Positions 1 to 57,385 of a stretch of DNA of 64,000 nucleotides are shown in pieces (the first letter of the stretch is position 1; the number at the start of each line of letters is the position of its first letter). The position numbers were made by a program, and so were the translations under genes. This stretch comes from Allomuricauda sp. ARW1Y1 (GTDB lineage Bacteria; Bacteroidota; Bacteroidia; Flavobacteriales; Flavobacteriaceae). The notes under the pieces are model-generated. The model was given only the letters and a program-made list of their open reading frames with translations. It made no database searches and had not been told where the DNA came from. The DNA is taken from assembly GCF_013407935.1 (NCBI RefSeq), contig NZ_JACBZU010000001.1, positions 930,001 through 994,000 of the forward strand. The letters are read 5' to 3'.

Positions 1-1294
1 GATAGATGCCTACAATGCTCAATACCAAAACCGCTACGGTGGTGATGTAAACAGCAATACGATGGTTGCGGACCATGTTCTCCATCCAGTTCACAAAAAA
101 GTCCATCCACTTTTTGTTCAGGTGCTTTAGGTGCTTCGTCTTTGGAAGTGGCATAAAGCTGTAAATGATGGGGATGATCAACAACGAAAGGATAAATATC
201 CCAATAATGTTGATGGAGGCCACGATACCAAATTCCTTGAGCAGGTCGCTGTCCAATATGATGAAGGTGGCGAAACCCGACGCCGTGGTAATGTTGGTCA
301 TCAAGGTGGCGTTCCCGATTTTGGAAATTACCCGTTGCAGGGAAAGCGCTTGGTTTCCATGTTTTTTGACCTCTTGTTGGTATTTGTTGATGAGGAAAAT
401 ACAATTGGGTATTCCAATAACGATAATCAGTGGGGGAATAAGGGCGGTAAGGATGGTAATCTCATATTTGAGTAGTCCTAAAATACCAAAAGCCCACATT
501 ACCCCGATGATAACTACGCACATGGATATAAATGTGGCCCTGAAACTTCGGAAGAAAAAGAAAAAGATGATAGAGGTCACCAACAGAGCACCAACGATAA
601 AAATACCGATTTCGTCCACGATTGATTTGGTGTTCCATGTTCGAATATAGGGCATACCGGAAATGCGGACATCCAACTGGGTCTCTTGTTCAAAATTCTC
701 TACCAAGTCACCCAGATCGTTTAGGATAAACTCGTTCCTCACTGCGGTATTCATGATGTCCTTATCCAAATACACCACCGTTTGGATGGTGCCACTCTTG
801 GGGTTGTACACCAGATTATCGTAAAAAGGAAGTTCGTTGAAAAGGTGATTGGTAAGCGAGTCGATTTCTTGTTTGGTCTTCGGGGGCGACTCGATCAGAG
901 GGGTCATCACAAAGGTTTGAGTCTCGGAGTCTTTCACCAGCTCCTTTAGGTTTTCCAAAGAAATCACGTAATCGACTTCGGGGAAAGCGTCTAACTGTTT
1001 GCTGAGCGTGTTCCACCGATTAAAATTTTTCGGTGTGAACAAAGCCGAATCCCGAATGGCCAAAACAATGGCGTTGCCCTCTTCGCCAAATATTTGGGTA
1101 AAGGACTTGTATTGAATGGTAGCGGGATGGTCGTCGGGAAGTATATTGGCCTCGGTATTGGAAAACTGCATGTTTTTCCATTGCAAGGCCAAGAATACGG
1201 TCATTCCAACGACGCCAAGTAGAATAAGAATCCTATTGCGGAGAATTATGCTTGCGACCTTAGGCCAAAATCCTTTAGTGAGCTTTGCTACCAT
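1..1294 (-). CDS. RND/MMPL-family exporter, N-terminal 431 codons (cut by window edge)
   Basis: Reading the minus strand from an ATG at 1294 gives an open frame that runs off the left edge. The first about 15 residues are basic, followed by a membrane segment (about residues 16-35). A soluble periplasmic-type domain of about 200 residues comes next, then a dense series of hydrophobic segments beginning with a run of consecutive phenylalanines. This matches the predicted RND-superfamily exporters (COG1033, MMPL or patched/SSD-like) that move hydrophobic substrates across the inner membrane. The start is supported by the signal-anchor layout. The substrate cannot be inferred. It is transcribed in the same direction as frr and pyrH but starts 75 bases after the frr stop, so co-transcription is possible and not shown. 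The 3' half lies outside the window. Confidence 0.8.
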   Translation of the reverse strand, partial: MVAKLTKGFWPKVASIILRNRILILLGVVGMTVFLALQWKNMQFSNTEANILPDDHPATIQYKSFTQIFGEEGNAIVLAIRDSALFTPKNFNRWNTLSKQLDAFPEVDYVISLENLKELVKDSETQTFVMTPLIESPPKTKQEIDSLTNHLFNELPFYDNLVYNPKSGTIQTVVYLDKDIMNTAVRNEFILNDLGDLVENFEQETQLDVRISGMPYIRTWNTKSIVDEIGIFIVGALLVTSIIFFFFFRSFRATFISMCVVIIGVMWAFGILGLLKYEITILTALIPPLIIVIGIPNCIFLINKYQQEVKKHGNQALSLQRVISKIGNATLMTNITTASGFATFIILDSDLLKEFGIVASINIIGIFILSLLIIPIIYSFMPLPKTKHLKHLNKKWMDFFVNWMENMVRNHRIAVYITTVAVLVLSIVGIY

Positions 1295-1369
1295 GTGGGT
1301 TTTGTTGGGCGCAAAGGTAGAAAATGATATGTTGTGTTCCTAGGAATGGGCCCTACCAAAACCCAAGTT

Positions 1370-1924
1370 TTATACCTTCATGATTTCCGCTTCTTTTGAC
1401 GATAGGATGTTATCAACCTTATCACTATAGGTGTTGGTCAATTCCTGAACGTCAACTTCGGCGTTGCTCAATAGGTCCTCGGAGATATCCAATGCCTTAA
1501 GTTCCTTATTGGCTTCCTGTCTGGCACTTCGGATACTTACCTTGGCATCCTCCGCTTCGGCCTTGGCTTGTTTTACCAATTGTTTTCTGCGTTCCTCGGT
1601 GAGTGGTGGTACGTTGATGATGACCATTTCTCCGTTGTTCATTGGGTTGAAGCCCAAATTGGCATTCATAATGGCAGTCTCAATATCGCCCAAGAGGTTT
1701 TTTTCCCATGGCTGCACAGATAGGGTGCGTGCATCTGGGGTATTGATGTTGGATACTTGTGAAAGTGGGGTTTGCGAACCATAATAATCCACCATCACGG
1801 TAGAGAGCATCATGGGGCTTGCCTTACCGGCCCTAATTTTGGTCAATGCTTTTTGCAAGTGGGCAATACTGGCCTCCATGCTTTCTTTGGTGCTGTCTAG
1901 AATAAATTTTACATCTTCGTCCAT
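1370..1924 (-). CDS. frr: ribosome recycling factor
   Basis: This is the ribosome recycling factor, which with EF-G splits the post-termination ribosome in the cytoplasm. The 184-residue length is the family norm and the product is alignable end to end: a start MDEDVKF, a central INVPPLTEERR motif and the long three-helix bundle. I chose ATG at 1924. A longer reading from TTG at 1933 would add only three residues (MIV) and has no support. It lies 42 bases downstream of pyrH on the same strand, the usual pyrH-frr pair, so the two are probably one transcript. Confidence 0.97.
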   Translation of the reverse strand: MDEDVKFILDSTKESMEASIAHLQKALTKIRAGKASPMMLSTVMVDYYGSQTPLSQVSNINTPDARTLSVQPWEKNLLGDIETAIMNANLGFNPMNNGEMVIINVPPLTEERRKQLVKQAKAEAEDAKVSIRSARQEANKELKALDISEDLLSNAEVDVQELTNTYSDKVDNILSSKEAEIMKV

Positions 1925-1966
1925 AACAATCAAATTTATAAAAATGAAACCAAATTGTGTGTCAGT

Positions 1967-2674
<708 letters not shown>

Positions 2675-2752
2675 TTAGAGTTTCTTGAAGTCCGGACAAA
2701 AATAATCAAAATTATTTATGGGATAGGAAGAATTGCAGGTTTGGTTTGGCCA

Positions 2753-2783
2753 TAAAAAAACCGCTTCTTTTTGGGAAGCGGTT
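2753..2783 (-). terminator. rho-independent terminator after tsf
   Basis: A perfect 9-bp stem (AACCGCTTC at 2759-2767 with its complement at 2775-2783) is followed on the minus strand by a run of seven T residues (2760-2754). It sits 24 bases past the tsf stop codon and separates tsf from pyrH. Confidence 0.9.
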
Positions 2784-2806
2784 CGTGTATTTGTGCTTGT
2801 GGTGAA

Positions 2807-3631
2807 CTAGCCCAATGCCACTCTTGTGAAACCAGTTACCTCCAAAGCGGAGTCTACTGATTTTACATATTGGGCAACACTTTGCTTGCTGTCTTTTATG
2901 AAATCTTGGTTCACCAAAGTATTGTCTTTAAAGAAACGCTTCAATTTTCCTTGAGCGATTTTGTCCAACATTTCCTCAGGTTTGCCTTCTTGACGCAATT
3001 GATCTTTTGCAATTTCGATTTCCTTGTCGATGATGGACTGGTCCACACCTTCTTCGTTCAATGCAACAGGATTCATCGCGGCAGCTTGCATGGCCACATC
3101 TTTGGCAGCTTCGGCAGCACCGTCAACGTTGGCGGACAGTCCAACCAAAGTAGCGATTTTGTTCCCTGCGTGGATGTATGACCCTACGAAAGGAGCGCTC
3201 AATCTTTCAAAGCTTCCGATTTCGATCTTCTCACCGATCACACCGGTTTGTTCGGTCAATTTTTCCGCAACGGTCATTCCATTGAAAGAAGCGGCTAGAA
3301 AGTCTTCCTTTTTGTCAAAACCTATTGCCAAATCGGCCAATTCGGTTGCAAGCTTTACAAAGCTATCGTTTTTGGCAACAAAGTCGGTTTCACAGTTTAG
3401 GGAGATAACCACTCCTTGTGTATTGTCATCGTTTACCTTTGCGATGGCAGCACCTTCGGATGAATCTCTGTCAGCTCTTTTTGCTGCAACTTTTTGACCT
3501 TTCTTTCTTAGGATTTCGATGGCTTGGTCAAAATCTCCATCAGCTTCGACCAAAGCTTTTTTACAATCCATCATTCCAGCTCCGGTAGCTTGTCTTAGTT
3601 TATTTACCTCTGCGGCAGTAATCTTTGCCAT
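2807..3631 (-). CDS. tsf: translation elongation factor Ts
   Basis: EF-Ts is the guanine nucleotide exchange factor that recycles EF-Tu-GDP. The N-terminus (MAKITAAEVNKLRQATGAGM, then MDCKKAL) is the UBA-like domain, and the signature TDFVAKN follows at about residue 82. The 274 residues fit the family. It is 81 bases downstream of rpsB, the conserved rpsB-tsf order. The gap holds a short hairpin but no clear U-tract. A strong terminator follows the gene. Confidence 0.97.
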   Translation of the reverse strand: MAKITAAEVNKLRQATGAGMMDCKKALVEADGDFDQAIEILRKKGQKVAAKRADRDSSEGAAIAKVNDDNTQGVVISLNCETDFVAKNDSFVKLATELADLAIGFDKKEDFLAASFNGMTVAEKLTEQTGVIGEKIEIGSFERLSAPFVGSYIHAGNKIATLVGLSANVDGAAEAAKDVAMQAAAMNPVALNEEGVDQSIIDKEIEIAKDQLRQEGKPEEMLDKIAQGKLKRFFKDNTLVNQDFIKDSKQSVAQYVKSVDSALEVTGFTRVALG

Positions 3632-3712
3632 TTTTTCTTTCTTTTTTAAATTTTATGTAAAGTAAAACACTACGAAAGTGTTTTTGTTTAGGACAATGTT
3701 AAATCAACAGGT

Positions 3713-4831
3713 TTATTCAACTCCGCCTTTAACGCTGTCTTGCCATTCTTTTAGTTCGTCCCAGTTGCCTTCGGCAGCCATTTTGGCTTGTTTTGGCCAA
3801 GATGTTGGGTCCAAATGAGCTAAAGTTGAACTGGCTTCGGTCAAGATTTCCTTGATTTTTTCAGCGTCAGTGTCCGCTAGTGCAGCATAAGTGCTTAGGC
3901 CATTGGCAACCAATGCCTCGGCAGCTTTAGGTCCTATACCTTCGATTTTGGTAAGGTCTTCTGGCTTGGCTTCAGCCTCTTTTTTGGCAGGCTTTTCCTC
4001 AGCAGGCTTCTCTTCTTTAGTTGCTGCCGCCTCGGCTTTTTTAGCAGGCTTTTCTTCTGCGGCTTTTTCCTTTTTCTTTGGAGTTTCCTCTACCGCATCG
4101 GTAGTGTCATCTTCCTTATCTTTTCCGCTTCCTTTATCGTTTTTGCGCTCTTCCAAACCTTCAGCAACGGCTTTGGTTACGTGCTCTAAGATAATTTCAA
4201 TGGATTTACCGGCATCGTCGTTGGATGGGATGGCGAAATCTACGTCACGAGGGTCGGAGTTCGTATCCACCATGGCGAAAATCGGGATGTTCAATTTTTG
4301 CGCTTCCTTAACAGCGATGTGCTCACGCATGGTGTCCACAATAAATAGGGCACCTGGCAAACGGGTCATATCTGCAATGGAGCCTAAGTTTTTCTCCAAC
4401 TTGGCACGCAAACGGTCAACTTGCAATCTTTCTTTTTTGGAAAGGGTGTTGAACGTTCCATCTTTCTTCATGCGGTCGATAGCAGCCATTTTTTTGACAG
4501 CTTTACGAATGGTTACAAAGTTGGTCAACATACCACCGGGCCATCTTTCGGTGATGTACGGCATGTTCACTTTGGATACTTTGTCCGCTACAATGTCCTT
4601 AGCTTGTTTTTTGGTAGCTACAAAAAGGATTTTTCTTCCTGAAGCGGCAATTTTCTTAAGGGCTTCGTTCGCTTCCTCAAGCTTTGCAGCTGTTTTGTAG
4701 AGATTGATAACGTGAATTCCGTTACGCTCCATGTAGATGTAGGGAGCCATGTTGGGGTTCCACTTTCGTGTTAGGTGTCCAAAATGCACACCTGCTTCCA
4801 GTAAGTCTTTTACTTCAATTTTACTTGCCAT
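3713..4831 (-). CDS. rpsB: 30S ribosomal protein S2 with C-terminal HhH extension
   Basis: S2 binds the head-body junction of the 30S subunit and helps recruit S1. Residues 1 to about 230 are a complete S2 domain, starting MASKIEVKDLLEAGVHFGH. The protein is 372 residues long, about 110-130 more than usual. The extra part is a Lys/Glu/Ala-rich linker (about 232-291, with repeated EEKPA and KKAE blocks) followed by a compact domain (292-372) containing IEGIGPKAAEAL, a helix-hairpin-helix signature, and ending in a WPKQAKMAAEG-type helix. The same domain type ends ActC (residues 518-583). Frame and composition are continuous, so this is a genuine fusion rather than a frameshift. The role of the extension is unknown; RNA binding or a protein contact is a guess. 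Confidence 0.95.
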   Translation of the reverse strand: MASKIEVKDLLEAGVHFGHLTRKWNPNMAPYIYMERNGIHVINLYKTAAKLEEANEALKKIAASGRKILFVATKKQAKDIVADKVSKVNMPYITERWPGGMLTNFVTIRKAVKKMAAIDRMKKDGTFNTLSKKERLQVDRLRAKLEKNLGSIADMTRLPGALFIVDTMREHIAVKEAQKLNIPIFAMVDTNSDPRDVDFAIPSNDDAGKSIEIILEHVTKAVAEGLEERKNDKGSGKDKEDDTTDAVEETPKKKEKAAEEKPAKKAEAAATKEEKPAEEKPAKKEAEAKPEDLTKIEGIGPKAAEALVANGLSTYAALADTDAEKIKEILTEASSTLAHLDPTSWPKQAKMAAEGNWDELKEWQDSVKGGVE

Positions 4832-4974
4832 TTTTTGTACTTAGTTTACGTTCCGTTGTAAGTAGCAATGCGCTGGTGGTCACAAAATTTTGTTCGCCCA
4901 GCCCATTTAGATGCTAAACTAGTTTCCAAAAAGTCGAAATGTATATTCCCTTTTGGAACAACGACAACTTGGTT

Positions 4975-5011
4975 AAAAATTTAACCCTGAAATGTGTACG
5001 CTTTCAGGGTT
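4975..5011 (-). terminator. terminator between rpsI and rpsB
   Basis: A perfect 10-bp stem (AACCCTGAAA at 4983-4992 with its complement at 5002-5011) and a 9-base loop are followed on the minus strand by AAATTTTT. It lies 42 bases after the rpsI stop and before the rpsB leader, so rplM-rpsI and rpsB-tsf are probably separate transcripts or linked only by readthrough. Confidence 0.75.
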
Positions 5012-5052
5012 TTCAATGAACTTATATAGTTGGGCACGAGACCCAATGTATA

Positions 5053-5439
5053 TTAACGCTTGGAGAATTGGAATTTCTTACGGGCTTTCTTCTGACCGAA
5101 TTTCTTTCTTTCCACCATTCTTGGGTCCCTTGTCAACAGACCTTCTGGCTTAAGAATGCCTCTGTTTTCCGCATCGATTTCGCACATAGCTCTTGATAAA
5201 GCCAAACGTACGGCTTCTGCCTGACCTGTGATACCGCCTCCGTAAACGTTTACTTTTACATCGTAGTTACCTTCGGTTTCCGTTAGGGCAAAAGGTTGCT
5301 TTACTTTGTACTGCAATGTACCGGTAGTAAAGTAATCGTTAAGATCTCTCTTGTTTATGGTGATGTTTCCAGAACCTTCGGAAACATATACTCTGGCTAC
5401 AGCAGTTTTTCTTCTACCTATCTTATGAACCACTTCCAT
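5053..5439 (-). CDS. rpsI: 30S ribosomal protein S9
   Basis: S9 is a 30S head protein whose C-terminal tail reaches the P-site tRNA. The 128-residue product begins [18 protein letters not shown] and contains the VNVYGGGITGQAEAVR core. It ends in the basic KKARKKFQFSKR tail, with the conserved terminal Lys-Arg. Its ATG shares one base with the rplM stop codon (TAATG), which suggests translational coupling. Confidence 0.98.
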   Translation of the reverse strand: MEVVHKIGRRKTAVARVYVSEGSGNITINKRDLNDYFTTGTLQYKVKQPFALTETEGNYDVKVNVYGGGITGQAEAVRLALSRAMCEIDAENRGILKPEGLLTRDPRMVERKKFGQKKARKKFQFSKR

Positions 5440-5894
5440 TATTTGTAGTCGTTTAAGTTTATAGCTTTTGGTTTTTGTGCTTCTTGTCCGTGCTCGGCTC
5501 CTGCATACACCTTAAGGTTTCTGAAGAGGTCCGCACCCAACTTGTTTTTGGGAAGCATTCCTTTTACGGAACTTTCGATAATACGCTCTGGGTGTTTGGC
5601 CAATACGTCTTTAGCGGAAGCGGAACGTTGTCCACCTGGGTACCCAGTATACCTTTGGTATTCTTTCTCGTCCCATTTGTTACCGGTCATGTCGATTTTC
5701 TCCGCGTTGATAACAATAACATTATCTCCACAATCCACATGGGGGGTAAAGTTGGTCTTGTATTTCCCTCTAAGTATTTTGGCTACTTTAGACGCCAATC
5801 TTCCCAAGGTCTGTCCTTCAGCATCAACCAATAACCATTGTTTGTCAACAGTAGATTTATTGGCGGAAAGAGTTTTATAACTTAATGTATCCAC
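5439..5894 (-). CDS. rplM: 50S ribosomal protein L13
   Basis: L13 is an early-assembly protein of the 50S subunit. The 151 residues include the motifs [19 protein letters not shown] and [10 protein letters not shown], and the C-terminal [13 protein letters not shown] expected for L13. It is the first gene of the rplM-rpsI unit. A textbook Bacteroidota promoter lies 47 bases upstream of the start codon. Confidence 0.98.
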
Positions 5895-5940
5895 TTCTCG
5901 AATATTATTGATTTAATAACCTTTCCCGAATAACGGGCTG

Positions 5941-5971
5941 CAAATGTACAATTATTAGATTGAATTACAAA
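5941..5971 (-). promoter_or_regulatory. rplM-rpsI promoter (Bacteroidota consensus)
   Basis: On the minus strand TTTG (5971-5968) is followed by exactly 19 bases and then TACATTTG (5948-5941), a perfect match to the TTTG-N19-TAnnTTTG promoter of the housekeeping sigma factor in Bacteroidota. Transcription would begin about 5934, giving a leader of about 40 bases before rplM. Confidence 0.85.
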
Positions 5972-6141
5972 CGGTTGATTGGGAATATTTTTTCACTTTT
6001 TTCAATTTGGATAGGAGTGCAAAAATACTGCCCACAAGTCAATTCCGCAAAATGTTAAAAATACCTTAAAAATCCGTGATACTGTAACTCTACCTGATTT
6101 CGTGGGTCTTTAACGTATCAACCTAATCAAAAAACGAACAA

Positions 6142-8793
6142 GTGAAGTATGCAGTCCTCGCTTTCGCGACCCTTCTTTTTATTTCCAAAAGTCAAGCACA
6201 GGATACCACCGAGGTGGTCGTCAAAAAAACATATACGACACATGATTTGGGCGAACATGCAGCACCAACGATAAATGGTGTTCTAGAGGATGAGGCTTGG
6301 AACCTTGTAGAATGGGCCGGAGATTATATTGAATGGCAACCCGACGAAAACACACCGCCCAGTCATCAGACCAAATTTAAAATACTGTACGATAGCAAAA
6401 ACCTATATATAGGTGTGCGCTGTTATGATGATGAACCGGACAAAATCGTAAAACGACTTTCCCGTAGGGATGGGTTTGATGGCGATTGGGTAGAATTCAA
6501 CATTGACAGTTACTTCGATAAACGCACCGCATTTTCCTTTACGATTACAGCTGCTGGCGTAAAGGGAGACGAATTTATTTCCAACAACGGGAATAATTGG
6601 GACTCCAGTTGGAATCCCATCTGGTATGCCAAATCCCATGTGGACGATGAAGGCTGGACGGCAGAGCTGCGGATACCGTTGAGCCAGTTGAAATTTGGCA
6701 GCGCCGAGGAACAGGTATGGGGATTTCAGTCTACACGACGTTTTTTTAGAGACGAAGAACGTTCGCTGTGGCAGCGAAAACCTGTGGATCAGCCCGGTTG
6801 GGTAAGCGAATTTGGCGAACTCCATGGACTAAAGAACATCGAACCCCAGAAGCAACTGGAAATACAGCCCTACACGGTAACGAATACAGAAACTTACGAG
6901 GCAGAAGAAAACAATCCGTTTAGGGATGGGAGCGAAAACAACCTGACCGTAGGACTGGACGCTAAAATCGGTATTACCAATGACCTTACTTTGGATTTGA
7001 CGGTAAACCCAGATTTTGGACAAGTGGATGCCGACCCGTCGGCCATTGCGTTGGATGGTTTTCAGATTTTCTTTCAAGAACGGCGGCCATTTTTTGTGGA
7101 GAACAAGAACATTTTTGATTTCAGTGTTTCCCAATCACAAGCAGGAAATACCTTTGGTTCAGATAATATCTTTTATTCCAGAAGAATTGGTAGAAGTCCT
7201 CAAGGCTATCCCAATACCTCGGACGGCGAATTTGTAAATCAACCGGACAACACCCCGATTATTGGAGCGGCCAAGTTTAGTGGAAAAACCAAGGACGGCT
7301 GGGCCATTGGTGTACTCGAGAGCGTAACGGCCCAGCGAACAGCGACCATTCTCAATGGCAACGGCGATACCAGAAAAGAGATGGTGGAGCCATTGACCAA
7401 TTATTTTGTGGGGCGACTTCAAAAGGATTTCAATGAACGGAACTCTTATATAGGCGGTATTTTTACGGCCACGAACAGGGAGAATTTACCAGAACAGCTC
7501 AATTTTTTACACGATGCCGCTTACACAGGCGGACTGGACTTTAAACACCAATGGGCCAATCGGGATTGGTACGTGGGAGGCAACATCACTCTGAGCCATG
7601 TACGTGGGAGTGAGGAGGCCATAACCAATACCCAAGAATCCATTACGCATTTGTTCGGAAGGGTGGGGGCGGACCACGTAGCGGTCGATTCAACCAGAAC
7701 ATCTTTGACAGGGACAGGGGGAAACGTGCAGATAGGGAAGATTGGCAATGGCCATTGGCGGTTCGAGTCGGGGGCCACTTGGCGTTCGCCCGAACTGGAG
7801 CTCAATGATATTGGTTTTCAGCGTCAATCGGACGATGTGCGGCACTACACCTGGATAGGATACCAAACCCTAAAACCGGATAGCACCTTTAGGCGGGTGG
7901 GCATCAACTACAACCATTGGTCGGCATGGGATTTTCAAGGGAATCATAATTATATGCAGTTCAATACCAATAGTTGGCAAAATTGGAAGGGCAATTGGAA
8001 TACCAATATCGGTTTCAACTATGCACCGATTCAATATTCGAACTTCGCCCTACGGGGTGGTCCAAGGCTTCGGCAATCCCCTTGGATGAGTTTTTGGAAC
8101 AGCATCAACACCGACAACCGGAAAAAAATGCGATTTTCCTTTTTTCACAACGGAAGGAAAGCTTTGGACAACTCCATCAAGACCTATTATATGGAAGGGG
8201 GTTTTGTGTACCAGCCCATAAATGCGTTGCGGGTTTCCGTATTTCCAAGTTTACAGATCAATAATGATCAGTTGCAGTTCATCAATAATTTTGATGATGT
8301 CAATGGCTCGCCGCGCTACCTGAATGGAGAAATTGACCAACGCACTTTGAGCATGTCCGTTAGGTTAAACTATACCATTAATCCCAATTTGACCATCCAA
8401 TATTGGGGACAGCCTTTTATTTCTCGCGGACGCTATTCCAATTTTAAGCATATCACGGACCCGGTTGCCAAGACTTTTGAGGATAGATTTGTGCAATATA
8501 CTCCAGAACAAACCAGTTTGGCCGATGGTAGCTATGCCATCGATGAAGATTTGGATGGTGTTACCGATTTCAGTTTTGATGACCCGGATTTTTCCTTTGT
8601 CCAATTCCGTTCCAACTTGGTCATTCGATGGGAGTATATTCCGGGGTCGGAAATATTCTTGGTATGGTCCCAGGATGTATCTAGGAGCGGCGACCCAACC
8701 AATGGATTGCTTTCCAGTTTGGGGGATAACATTTTTGGACAAAAACCACAAAACATATTCTTATTGAAGGCTACCTATCGGTTTGTACTATAA
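6142..8793 (+). CDS. DUF5916 outer-membrane protein with CBM9-like N-terminal domain
   Basis: The product is an 883-residue exported protein with a Sec signal (first 19 residues, ending KSQAQ). Residues about 35-220 resemble the carbohydrate-binding-9-like domain: PTINGVLEDEAW, then YDSKNLYIGVRC. The rest is DUF5916, an aromatic-rich region with alternating beta strands ending in a C-terminal LLKATYRFVL, typical of an outer-membrane beta-barrel. The start is GTG at 6142; no in-frame ATG precedes it and the signal peptide starts there. Function is not established for this family. It stands alone and diverges from rplM. No good promoter match is visible in the 200 bases before it. Confidence 0.85.
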   Translation: MKYAVLAFATLLFISKSQAQDTTEVVVKKTYTTHDLGEHAAPTINGVLEDEAWNLVEWAGDYIEWQPDENTPPSHQTKFKILYDSKNLYIGVRCYDDEPDKIVKRLSRRDGFDGDWVEFNIDSYFDKRTAFSFTITAAGVKGDEFISNNGNNWDSSWNPIWYAKSHVDDEGWTAELRIPLSQLKFGSAEEQVWGFQSTRRFFRDEERSLWQRKPVDQPGWVSEFGELHGLKNIEPQKQLEIQPYTVTNTETYEAEENNPFRDGSENNLTVGLDAKIGITNDLTLDLTVNPDFGQVDADPSAIALDGFQIFFQERRPFFVENKNIFDFSVSQSQAGNTFGSDNIFYSRRIGRSPQGYPNTSDGEFVNQPDNTPIIGAAKFSGKTKDGWAIGVLESVTAQRTATILNGNGDTRKEMVEPLTNYFVGRLQKDFNERNSYIGGIFTATNRENLPEQLNFLHDAAYTGGLDFKHQWANRDWYVGGNITLSHVRGSEEAITNTQESITHLFGRVGADHVAVDSTRTSLTGTGGNVQIGKIGNGHWRFESGATWRSPELELNDIGFQRQSDDVRHYTWIGYQTLKPDSTFRRVGINYNHWSAWDFQGNHNYMQFNTNSWQNWKGNWNTNIGFNYAPIQYSNFALRGGPRLRQSPWMSFWNSINTDNRKKMRFSFFHNGRKALDNSIKTYYMEGGFVYQPINALRVSVFPSLQINNDQLQFINNFDDVNGSPRYLNGEIDQRTLSMSVRLNYTINPNLTIQYWGQPFISRGRYSNFKHITDPVAKTFEDRFVQYTPEQTSLADGSYAIDEDLDGVTDFSFDDPDFSFVQFRSNLVIRWEYIPGSEIFLVWSQDVSRSGDPTNGLLSSLGDNIFGQKPQNIFLLKATYRFVL

Positions 8794-55103: not shown

Positions 55104-56855
55104 ATGGCGTCGCATTACGAAGCACCTATTCGAAAGCCCTTAGTGGTCGGAGACAAAGGATACCACGATGTAACAGTGGACATTGCCCGTCCGGTTGAGG
55201 GAAAGGCCAATAAGCAATGGTGGATAGTATTCTCCATTGCCTTGGTGGCATTCCTCTGGGGTCTAGGATGTATCATTTATACCATTTCTACAGGTATTGG
55301 GGTTTGGGGTCTTAACCGAACCGTAAACTGGGCCTGGGATATTACCAACTTCGTTTGGTGGGTAGGTATCGGTCACGCAGGTACCCTGATTTCAGCGGTA
55401 TTATTGCTCTTCCGTCAAAAATGGAGAATGGCGATCAACCGCTCCGCTGAGGCGATGACCATTTTTTCCGTTGTTCAAGCCGGATTGTTCCCGATCATTC
55501 ACATGGGACGGCCATGGTTGGCATATTGGGTGTTGCCCATTCCCAACCAATTTGGTTCACTATGGGTAAACTTTAACTCGCCCTTGCTTTGGGACGTGTT
55601 CGCGATTTCAACCTATCTTTCCGTATCCTTGGTGTTCTGGTGGACAGGTTTGTTGCCTGATTTTGCCATGATCCGCGATAGGGCCGTAAAACCGTTCCAA
55701 AAGAAAATATACAGTCTGTTGAGCTTCGGTTGGACAGGACGTGCAAAGGATTGGCAACGTTTTGAGGAAGTTTCCTTGGTATTGGCAGGTTTGGCCACGC
55801 CCTTGGTACTTTCCGTACACACCATTGTATCGTTTGACTTTGCTACCTCGGTAATTCCAGGATGGCACACCACCATCTTCCCGCCTTACTTTGTTGCGGG
55901 AGCGATTTTCTCTGGTTTTGCCATGGTAAACACTCTTTTGATCATCATGAGAAAGGTATGTAGCCTCGAAGCCTACATTACCGTACAGCATATCGAGTTG
56001 ATGAACATCGTAATCATGATTACAGGTTCTATTGTTGGATGTGCCTACATTACCGAGCTCTTTATCGCATGGTATTCTGGTGTAGAGTACGAGCAATATG
56101 CCTTCTTGAACAGGGCGACAGGACCATACGCTTGGGCATACTGGGCCATGATGACCTGTAATGTGTTCTCGCCACAGTTTATGTGGTTCAAAAAATTGAG
56201 GACCAGCATCATGTTCTCATTCTTTATCTCCATTGTGGTGAACATAGGAATGTGGTTCGAGCGTTTCGTAATTATCGTAACCTCTTTGCATAGGGATTAC
56301 TTGCCATCTTCATGGACCATGTTCTCCCCAACCTTTGTCGATATCGGAATATTTATTGGAACCATCGGATTCTTCTTCGTATTGTTCCTATTGTATTCAA
56401 GAACATTCCCGGTAATTGCACAGGCCGAGGTAAAATCCATTTTGAAGGCTTCTGGAGAGAAATACAAAAAATTAAGGGAGGCTGGTAAACCAATGTACGA
56501 AATGCCGCAAGGCGTGAACAGGGTGGTGAGTTACGATGAGCCCATTACGGATGACGTACTGATGGGGGAAGCAAAACCTACCGTTGGCGATAAGGTTGGT
56601 GTGTCTGAGTTGTTGAGTTCTATTGGAACCTTCGATGCGGCCACCGAAACCCCGGACGATTTAAAGAAAATTAAAGGAGTGGGCCCCGAGATGGAACGCA
56701 CTTTGAACGAGATAGGTATTTTTACCTATGCACAGGTCGCTAGAATGACCGAAAAAGAGTATGATTTGTTGGACTCCATCACCGGAAGGTTCCCAGGACG
56801 TGCACAGCGTGACGATTGGGCGGGTCAGGCAAAGTTGTTAAACGATAAAAAATAA
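55104..56855 (+). CDS. actC: ACIII subunit ActC (NrfD-type) with C-terminal HhH domain
   Basis: A 583-residue NrfD-like protein with about ten membrane segments (55 to about 440), the quinol-interacting core of ACIII. Hallmarks are the GIGHAGTLISAVLLLFRQKW and EAMTIFSVVQAGLFPIIHMG helices. Beyond the membrane part is a soluble tail, and residues 518-583 form a helix-hairpin-helix domain (DLKKIKGVGPEMERTLNEIG; ending WAGQAKLLNDKK), which matches the extra domain of S2 in this window. The frame and composition are continuous, so the fusion is real. Its contribution to the complex is unknown. It ends two bases before actD. Confidence 0.93.
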   Translation: MASHYEAPIRKPLVVGDKGYHDVTVDIARPVEGKANKQWWIVFSIALVAFLWGLGCIIYTISTGIGVWGLNRTVNWAWDITNFVWWVGIGHAGTLISAVLLLFRQKWRMAINRSAEAMTIFSVVQAGLFPIIHMGRPWLAYWVLPIPNQFGSLWVNFNSPLLWDVFAISTYLSVSLVFWWTGLLPDFAMIRDRAVKPFQKKIYSLLSFGWTGRAKDWQRFEEVSLVLAGLATPLVLSVHTIVSFDFATSVIPGWHTTIFPPYFVAGAIFSGFAMVNTLLIIMRKVCSLEAYITVQHIELMNIVIMITGSIVGCAYITELFIAWYSGVEYEQYAFLNRATGPYAWAYWAMMTCNVFSPQFMWFKKLRTSIMFSFFISIVVNIGMWFERFVIIVTSLHRDYLPSSWTMFSPTFVDIGIFIGTIGFFFVLFLLYSRTFPVIAQAEVKSILKASGEKYKKLREAGKPMYEMPQGVNRVVSYDEPITDDVLMGEAKPTVGDKVGVSELLSSIGTFDAATETPDDLKKIKGVGPEMERTLNEIGIFTYAQVARMTEKEYDLLDSITGRFPGRAQRDDWAGQAKLLNDKK

Positions 56856-56857
56856 TT

Positions 56858-57385
56858 ATGGCATCAAAAGTTATACAAGCACTTTACAACGATGACGATG
56901 TGTTGATGCATGCTGTAAAAAAGGTTAGGGCAGAGCGACATCATATCGAAGAGGTGTACACTCCTTTTCCAGTTCACGGTCTAGATAAGGCCATGGGGTT
57001 GGAGGACACTCGAATCGCCATTACCTCTTTCCTTTACGGATGTTTGGGATTGACGGTCGCCATAGTTATGATGAACTATATCATGATAGAGGATTGGCCC
57101 CAAGACATTGGTGGTAAGCCAAGCTTTAGCTACTTGGAGAACATGCCTGCCTTTGTTCCGATTATGTTTGAGCTTACGGTTTTCTTTGCGGCCCACTTGA
57201 TGGTGATCACGTTTTACCTCAGAAGTAAAATGTGGCCTTTCAAAAAAGCGGAGAACCCGGATAAGCGTACTACCGACGACCATTTCTTGATGGAGATTGG
57301 TGTACATGATAATGAAAAGGAACTTGCTGACCTGTTGTGGGAAACAGGAGCAGTGGAAGTAAAAGTTACAGAAAAGGAGTCTTAA
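56858..57385 (+). CDS. actD: ACIII subunit ActD (DUF3341)
   Basis: A 175-residue protein with two membrane segments in the middle (RIAITSFLYGCLGLTVAIVM and MPAFVPIMFELTVFFAAHLM) and a ferredoxin-like soluble part, the DUF3341 family that is ActD of ACIII. The N-terminal VIQALYNDDDVLMHAVKKVR motif is conserved. It starts two bases after actC, so translation is probably coupled. Confidence 0.93.
   Translation: MASKVIQALYNDDDVLMHAVKKVRAERHHIEEVYTPFPVHGLDKAMGLEDTRIAITSFLYGCLGLTVAIVMMNYIMIEDWPQDIGGKPSFSYLENMPAFVPIMFELTVFFAAHLMVITFYLRSKMWPFKKAENPDKRTTDDHFLMEIGVHDNEKELADLLWETGAVEVKVTEKES

Follow-up and report, generated by a model that had tools for sequence, protein, structure and literature searches.

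The ends of long NCBIfam models of ribosomal proteins S2 and L21 match a helix-hairpin-helix (HhH) domain of the kind described below, so an S2 or L21 with such an end is of a kind that is already known. For 30S ribosomal protein S2 this is the 334-position PRK12311 (NF008966), and for 50S ribosomal protein L21 it is PRK12278, with lengths of 216 and 223 positions; we take both to be proteobacterial 'unknown domain fusions'. NCBIfam also holds an L20/unknown domain fusion protein (PRK14537) and the 'sunset domain' variants NF051451 (S2), NF051448 (L17) and NF051450 (L20), with an extra domain on proteins that can bear an HhH domain in the genomes described below. A related HhH segment also occurs in ribosomal protein eL32 (9l94_Q; PRK12766), presumably archaeal, where it is disordered in older crystal structures. 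Outside the ribosome, the signature DDLKKIxGxGPK...W..QA is found at the C-termini of 8yy9_O (Reaction center protein O chain), 9wqv_a (complex I 41 kDa subunit) and the NuoE model PRK12373. The AR2 domain of NusA (1wcn, 6ib8, 2jzb) is an acidic dual HhH at the C-terminus of an RNA-binding protein, and it binds alphaCTD and SuhB (PMC6614801).

The window analysed here is a stretch of 64,000 nucleotides from Allomuricauda sp. ARW1Y1 (contig NZ_JACBZU010000001.1, positions 930,001 to 994,000). Its rpsB gene encodes an S2 with an extra C-terminal HhH domain (Table 1), which is a real observation. A preliminary description, made from the sequence, had reported a 372-residue S2 with a Lys/Glu linker and an HhH end, and all of this was confirmed. 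The S2 core matched PF00318 with 300.5 bits (cut-off 26.1) and TIGR01011 with 299.9 bits (cut-off 76.3), and HHH_5 matched residues 291-329 with 34.6 bits (cut-off 27), or 39.5 bits with the tail alone. The coordinates of the gene had been given exactly, and we add the strand: the frame lies on the minus strand, and the plus strand of 3713-4831 is full of stops. That ordinary S2 is shorter also held. Among the matches listed (E up to 1e-50), the 53 solved S2 sequences measured 217-283 aa, apart from one 326-aa S2-S1 fusion construct, and the best alignments all stopped at or before residue 286. The genome gave one S2 match, thus a single S2 gene. It stands in the usual order rplM-rpsI-rpsB-tsf, with pyrH and frr also downstream (translations read by eye). 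An Rfam scan of window positions 1-7000 gave no match at the gathering thresholds.

Table 1. Coordinates of the features discussed, in positions of the window.
Feature	Position	Strand	Remarks
tsf (elongation factor Ts)	2807..3631	-	usual neighbour; translation read by eye
rpsB (uS2 of the 30S subunit, HhH tail at its C-terminus)	3713..4831	-	372 aa + stop
HhH tail domain, residues 290-372	3716..3964	-	83 residues, net charge -8; PF14520 HHH_5; five predicted helices
W-x-x-Q-A signature of the S2-type tail family, residues 345-349	3785..3799	-	W, Q and A invariant in 42 S2 rows
helix-hairpin-helix motif DLTKIEGIGPKAAEALVA, residues 292-309	3905..3958	-	G9, G11, P12 and K13 (numbered within the tail) are the same in all 42 S2 tails aligned
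Lys/Glu/Ala-rich linker, residues 229-289	3965..4147	-	61 residues; net charge 0; predicted disordered (pLDDT <50, residues 234-287)
uS2 core, residues 1-228	4148..4831	-	PF00318 at residues 10-225, E 6.7e-90; net charge +8
rpsI (S9)	5053..5439	-	upstream of rpsB; translation read by eye
rplM (L13)	5439-5894		translation read by eye
NrfD/ActC-like membrane protein	55104..56855	+	related HhH of another subfamily at the C-terminus (56652-56840); third copy found in the genome

The tail of the window S2 aligned to positions 268-329 of PRK12311 and to positions 153-215 of the 216-position PRK12278. The whole protein scored about 274 bits with PRK12311, below the cut-off of 526, which none of the control genomes reached either (0/14). 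Searched alone, the S2 tail matched the ends of the long models with just E 0.0019 (S2) and 2e-6 (L21). The NrfD/ActC-like tail, which represents the second subfamily, matched such ends with E 7.7e-20 (NuoE), 7.5e-14 (S2) and 1.4e-12 (L21). Since this tail matches far better than the S2 tail, the tails of PRK12311 and PRK12278 are nearer to the second subfamily, and by sequence their fusions look independent of the window S2 fusion. The non-ribosomal 8yy9_O (E 1.5e-9), 9wqv_a (E 6.1e-6) and PRK12373 are also nearer to the second subfamily.

Scores with the sunset models were likewise below their cut-offs: 252.5 bits against 710 for NF051451, where the match ended at position 326 of 382, 152 against 280 for NF051448 and 104 against 375 for NF051450. 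Their unmatched ends comprised 56 of 382, 72 of 229 and 80 of 219 positions, and we take the sunset domain as probably distinct from the HhH domain, though borne by some of the ribosomal proteins that can carry either. PRK14537 scored 115 (cut-off 187). The NusA AR2 domain is 20% identical to the S2 tail, and S2 lacks the S1-KH context of NusA; a 13-row tail profile did not match the NusA AR2 chains significantly (E 0.13-0.15). The eL32 match was not significant either (E 0.065), and its HhH segment is N-terminal (residues 7-44), unlike the C-terminal S2 tail. PRK12766 matched the L21 protein of locus L371 with E 2.6e-4.

The AlphaFold2 model of the tail had a mean pLDDT of 92.3. In the full-length S2 model most of the tail scored 85-92, and the core was poor (pTM 0.37, shallow alignment), which makes this model uninformative on how the tail packs against the S2 core. 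A Foldseek search of the tail against the PDB gave no significant match (best E 0.59); 8yy9_O, found by sequence, was outside the Foldseek matches listed, which is uninformative either way. VIA-align over Foldseek's 87 chains gave Z 9.3 for DNA polymerase theta, 8.0 for the RadA/Rad51 N-domain (RadA-N) and 7.5 for E. coli NusA AR2 (1wcn; 64 of 70 residues, 2.3 A), where by the program's own caveat a Z below 8, or below about 13 for helical folds, may mean just a common arrangement. As modelled, the tail is about as similar in fold to RadA-N as to the acidic AR2 of NusA. The canonical GxGPK of the first hairpin is intact in the S2 tail, and the second hairpin, read by eye, has no GxG.

We observed the same tail, in an open frame, on the S2 genes of all 80 loci examined, the best 80 of 476 relatives, which include Flagellimonas, Allomuricauda, Maribacter, Zobellia, Kriegella and Croceivirga. 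In Flagellimonas marinaquae, a close relative, the S2 tail is 99% identical to that of the window, and the 215 core codons compared show 36 synonymous differences and not one nonsynonymous difference. Across 76 S2 genes, 75 from the 80 relatives plus that of the window (223 overlapping pairs with core pS <0.45), pN/pS was 0.112 for the tail and 0.036 for the core. The 120 closest pairs gave 0.028 for the core, 0.090 for the tail and 0.212 for the linker, which had 1085 gap columns. Omega was about 0.08 for the tail and 0.03 for the core. The linker ranged from 39 to 99 residues in the 75 relatives. A further alignment joined the window tail to those of 41 named loci, picked for diversity from the 80, and of its 83 columns 35 were invariant over the 42 S2 tails. 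K13 and the W, Q and A of W-x-x-Q-A were also invariant in a 13-row mixed alignment; S replaces this A in 3 of the 80 named loci, all outside both alignments. The conservation of K13 was taken from these two alignments, excluding the charge-comparison set used below, whose search pattern demanded K13. The low pN/pS of the tail, its invariant columns and the variable linker length mean that the tail is under purifying selection and that the linker behaves as a length-tolerant spacer. An artefact, read-through, chance or an assembly error is ruled out by the open reading frame, the tail in 80/80 loci and the purifying selection.

On the strength of the named relatives, the family (f1) was taken as Flavobacteriaceae and the phylum as Bacteroidota. 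In a 60-genus draw of the family that was blind to the tail, S2 could be read for 56 genera and was tailed in nine, the window genome included. Some copy of the domain was present in 183 of 249 family genomes, and it was on S2 in at least 43 of them; all 43 S2 genes were examined, with G572 counted by a domain match and partial sequence and G559, a frame at a contig edge, dropped. In a tree of S2, Tsf and S9 from 90 of 93 genomes (G415, G427 and G559 left out), the tailed rows formed a group of 35 (99%) and a group of 8 (96%), and all rows within the two groups were tailed. One joint clade of tailed S2 in the family was rejected on this tree (p-AU 0.0025). We claim two clades and not two gains, because exchange of the rpsB gene would give the same picture. 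In the tree of the tails, which rests on 83 columns, a 99% branch parted 8 S2 tails, together with bL21 and membrane copies, from the other 35. Since these 8 tails derive from both S2 core clades, tails and S2 cores seem, at least in part, not to have one shared history. Tailed S2 was also found in two genomes of another family, f109 (L372, L389).

According to the preliminary description, further ribosomal proteins of Bacteroidota have tails like this one, and it proposed a search for the domain across the phylum. The search found further hosts, and the range proved wider than stated there. Hosts confirmed by Pfam were uS2, bL21, bL27, bL17, bL20, bS1 and a divergent uL16, of which bL21 is a frequent ribosomal seat in the family. 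L27 was the host at L334, L337 and L380, L17 at L358, L362, L366 and L383, and L20, S1, L21 and L16 at one locus each (L382, L352, L371 and L361). Two of these tails were recognised by a custom profile: that of L382 (E 8.0e-30, not HHH_5) and that of L361 (E 1.0e-17; HHH_5 25.2 bits, below the cut-off of 27). Eight more hosts were identified by eye (L343, L370, L387, L388, L336, L359, L375, L350). A tail specific to S2 is rejected, since other ribosomal proteins bear the same kind of domain. It is a roaming C-terminal module, and S2 is one of its seats. The genome G758 bears it on bL21, S2, ActC, ActD and a membrane-anchored protein. Across the phylum, 57 of 395 genomes had a domain match at E up to 1e-4 and 338 had none at that threshold; a draw of the class gave a match at 1e-6 in 30 of 315 genomes. 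A domain that most of the phylum lacks serves nothing universal. At L376 and L378 the HhH tail follows a small basic protein that is possibly ribosome-associated and that we assume to be DUF4295-like. This host part had no meaningful Pfam match outside the HhH and no PDB match, and it was not counted as ribosomal.

Many bL21 proteins carry an unrelated Rho_N domain in place of the HhH. In 36 of the 43 genomes with a tailed S2 the end of bL21 could be read, and it was HhH in 15 and Rho_N in 21. The idea that S2 or L21 carries the domain but never both is therefore rejected. In 47 genomes without HhH on S2, a non-random set partly chosen for bL21 matches, with bL21 ends typed by pattern, we counted 23 HhH, 18 Rho_N, 3 with no domain and 3 with another; the state of S2 was taken from the family domain scan where S2 was unread, and G551 was unreadable. 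Over the 83 family genomes read, 38 bL21 proteins had HhH, 39 Rho_N and 6 neither. The bL21 of the window genome itself (L064, C1:165895-166422, minus strand) ends in Rho_N (PF07498, E 3.2e-10). All 10 genomes of the genus that were searched, own genome included, have a Rho_N in a frame as long as a bL21 (178-192 aa), of which the own frame alone was read. The same 10/10 genomes have a second Rho_N frame of about 350-580 aa, which was taken for Rho.

The domain is also seated on non-ribosomal proteins, with Pfam-confirmed hosts in NrfD/ActC and ActD (subunits of alternative complex III) and a CBM protein. The CBM hosts have an AMPK1_CBM of the glycogen-binding type before the HhH tail (L357 by Pfam, L360 and L365 by eye). 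In the window genome, L003 (C1:282560-282808, plus strand) is a 201-aa protein, membrane-anchored as judged by eye, whose copy of the HhH domain shares 41% identity with the S2 tail. The membrane-anchored copies of the family (26 rows) formed one clade with 98% SH-aLRT. L354 and L355 have two tandem HhH domains and are apparently membrane-anchored; in L355 there is one of each subfamily (by eye). The protein at 56858-57385, adjoining the NrfD/ActC-like gene, looks by eye like the ActD of L373, a Pfam-confirmed one. The domain on bL21 of G118, G103 and G367 reads, by eye, like the second subfamily, and because some bL21 proteins bear this kind, ribosomal proteins appear to have picked up the HhH fold more than once.

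Most ribosome-borne copies of the domain were acidic. The S2 tails (n=116, genome repeats included) had a mean net charge of -5.7 and a pI of 4.79, and the L21 tails (n=39, genome repeats included) a mean of -3.7. In the charge-comparison set the ribosomal means were -4.4 for S2 (45), -3.7 for L21 (41), -5.8 for L27 (6), -7.8 for L17 (4), -7.0 for S1 (2) and -4 for L20 (1). The non-ribosomal means were -1.6 for the membrane copies (45), -1.5 for ActC (2), +2.0 for the ActC/ActD pair (2) and +4.3 for CBM (3). Near-neutral ribosome-borne copies exist, with S2 up to +3 and L21 up to +1. A comparison within the 21 genomes that have an S2 and a membrane copy found the S2 one more acidic in 17, equal in 1 and less acidic in 3; as the genomes are related, a sign test on this is indicative only. 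In 6 genomes the L21 charge was lower than that of the membrane copy in 3, tied in 1 and higher in 2. Neither the charge-comparison set nor the paired set includes the divergent tail on bL21 of G118. HhH stretches of the window genome that we read as RuvA, UvrC, DinB and LigA had charges of +2, +4, 0 and -2.

We consider it about an even call that the tail of S2 serves for docking, as a tethered domain that reaches off the ribosome. The zwitterionic, flexible and length-tolerant linker would hold the tail on the solvent side of the 30S subunit, and the folded acidic dual-HhH domain would bind a partner other than rRNA, probably a protein, much as the acidic AR2 of NusA binds RNA polymerase alphaCTD or SuhB. 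The acidity would keep ribosome-borne copies from sticking to rRNA. Since the module sits on several ribosomal and a few membrane proteins, its high copy number on the ribosome may count more than which protein holds it. The preliminary description had proposed that the tail binds RNA or docks a partner. Docking is the part we prefer; RNA binding as a general surface property does not fit a mean charge of -5.7 and a pI of 4.8, and the acidity of the ribosome-borne copies argues against binding to rRNA. A local contact with nucleic acid may still be made through the intact GxGPK hairpin.

RNA polymerase would be a plausible docking partner by analogy with NusA, and alphaCTD is itself an HhH fold. 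In E. coli, cross-links join the polymerase to S1, S2, S18 and S21, and S2 is bound by the beta' zinc finger of the enzyme (PMC5655137). An arm borne on S2 would be well placed for the polymerase because the E. coli enzyme contacts S2. In its strongest form this would make the tail an RNA polymerase docking arm, whose AR2-like HhH grasps alphaCTD in a transcription-translation coupling of its own. One starting point would be S2, which lies opposite the polymerase's RNA exit in E. coli, the roaming over bL21, bL27, bL17, bL20, bS1 and uL16 would be the same coupling reinvented from other points of the ribosome, and the coupling would serve bacteria poor in Shine-Dalgarno sequences. We give this specific form little credence, as a long shot.

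Several features that count against docking would fit a nucleic-acid clamp, in which the GxGPK hairpin would bind the backbone of mRNA, an rRNA precursor or chromosomal DNA and keep ribosomes near transcripts or the nucleoid. The HHH_5 match is above threshold, and GxGPK, with G9, G11, P12 and K13 invariant in the 42 S2 tails and the mixed alignment, looks like an intact phosphate-binding hairpin. RadA-N (Z 8.0) and DNA polymerase theta (Z 9.3), both proteins of DNA metabolism, rank at least as high as NusA among the fold neighbours. bS1 is among the hosts, and bL21 bears at the same place either HhH or Rho_N (15 and 21 of 36 genomes with a tailed S2), a module usually linked to nucleic acid. 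Some copies are near neutral, and those on L21 are not clearly more acidic than the membrane ones, which also weakens the case for docking. Most ribosome-borne copies, however, are acidic against +2 and +4 for the putative RuvA and UvrC stretches, even if the putative DinB and LigA stretches have 0 and -2, and the second hairpin has no GxG in our own reading of the sequence. We regard the clamp as possible, though we lean against it.

Acidity could also serve the host protein itself, with the tail as an intramolecular chaperone or solubility tag that aids the assembly or stability of a basic ribosomal protein before assembly, with no specific partner involved. Such a tag would suit the basic charge of the S2 core (+8), the average acidity of the ribosome-borne copies and the low complexity of the linkers. 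A charge tag, however, would not need 35 of 83 columns invariant in 42 S2 tails, nor would it sit on ActC, ActD and CBM proteins, and we find this explanation unlikely. The seats on membrane proteins would instead fit a homotypic tether, in which ribosome-borne HhH domains pair with the membrane-anchored HhH protein (L003) and bring ribosomes to the inner membrane. The membrane copy is one family, found in many of the same genomes with a 41% identical domain, and ActC and ActD are membrane proteins as well. Such a pairing is not obligate: 11 genomes of genus g2 have a single match, which in the one read is the membrane copy (G174, L349), and G416 and G449 (80% complete) have the bL21 copy only. 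We judge the tether very unlikely.

Ribosomal proteins are usually regarded as fixed parts, and here one small folded module sits on seven of their C-termini in one phylum. This spread over seven ribosomal proteins was not found in print in the open-licence literature. Searches of that literature found nothing on HhH on ribosomal protein L21, on HhH combined with a C-terminal extension of S2 or on bL21 with a Rho/SAP domain, and no functional study of an HhH-tailed S2 or L21. The flavobacterial ribosome structures that we found, which we take to be from F. johnsoniae, contain an S2 (9oy8_H, 254 aa) and an L21 (7jil_R, 147 aa) without the domain, and the two proteins share the entries 9oz9, 9ozn and 9ozz. 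Because neither protein has the domain, these structures could not show the tail, and the look for density near S2 that the preliminary description proposed cannot work with this series. The spread of the module points to a function of the whole ribosome that is hidden from them, and it suggests a mobile docking arm for the ribosome in this marine flavobacterium with its tailed S2 and in its relatives.

Some S2 genes of the family (L038, L039, L040, L043, L044 and L054) have another, shorter conserved tail motif after the linker. This motif reads VPS-D-EDKKAMKEAKK-VKLESKKETLEKA and is looser in L038 and L054.
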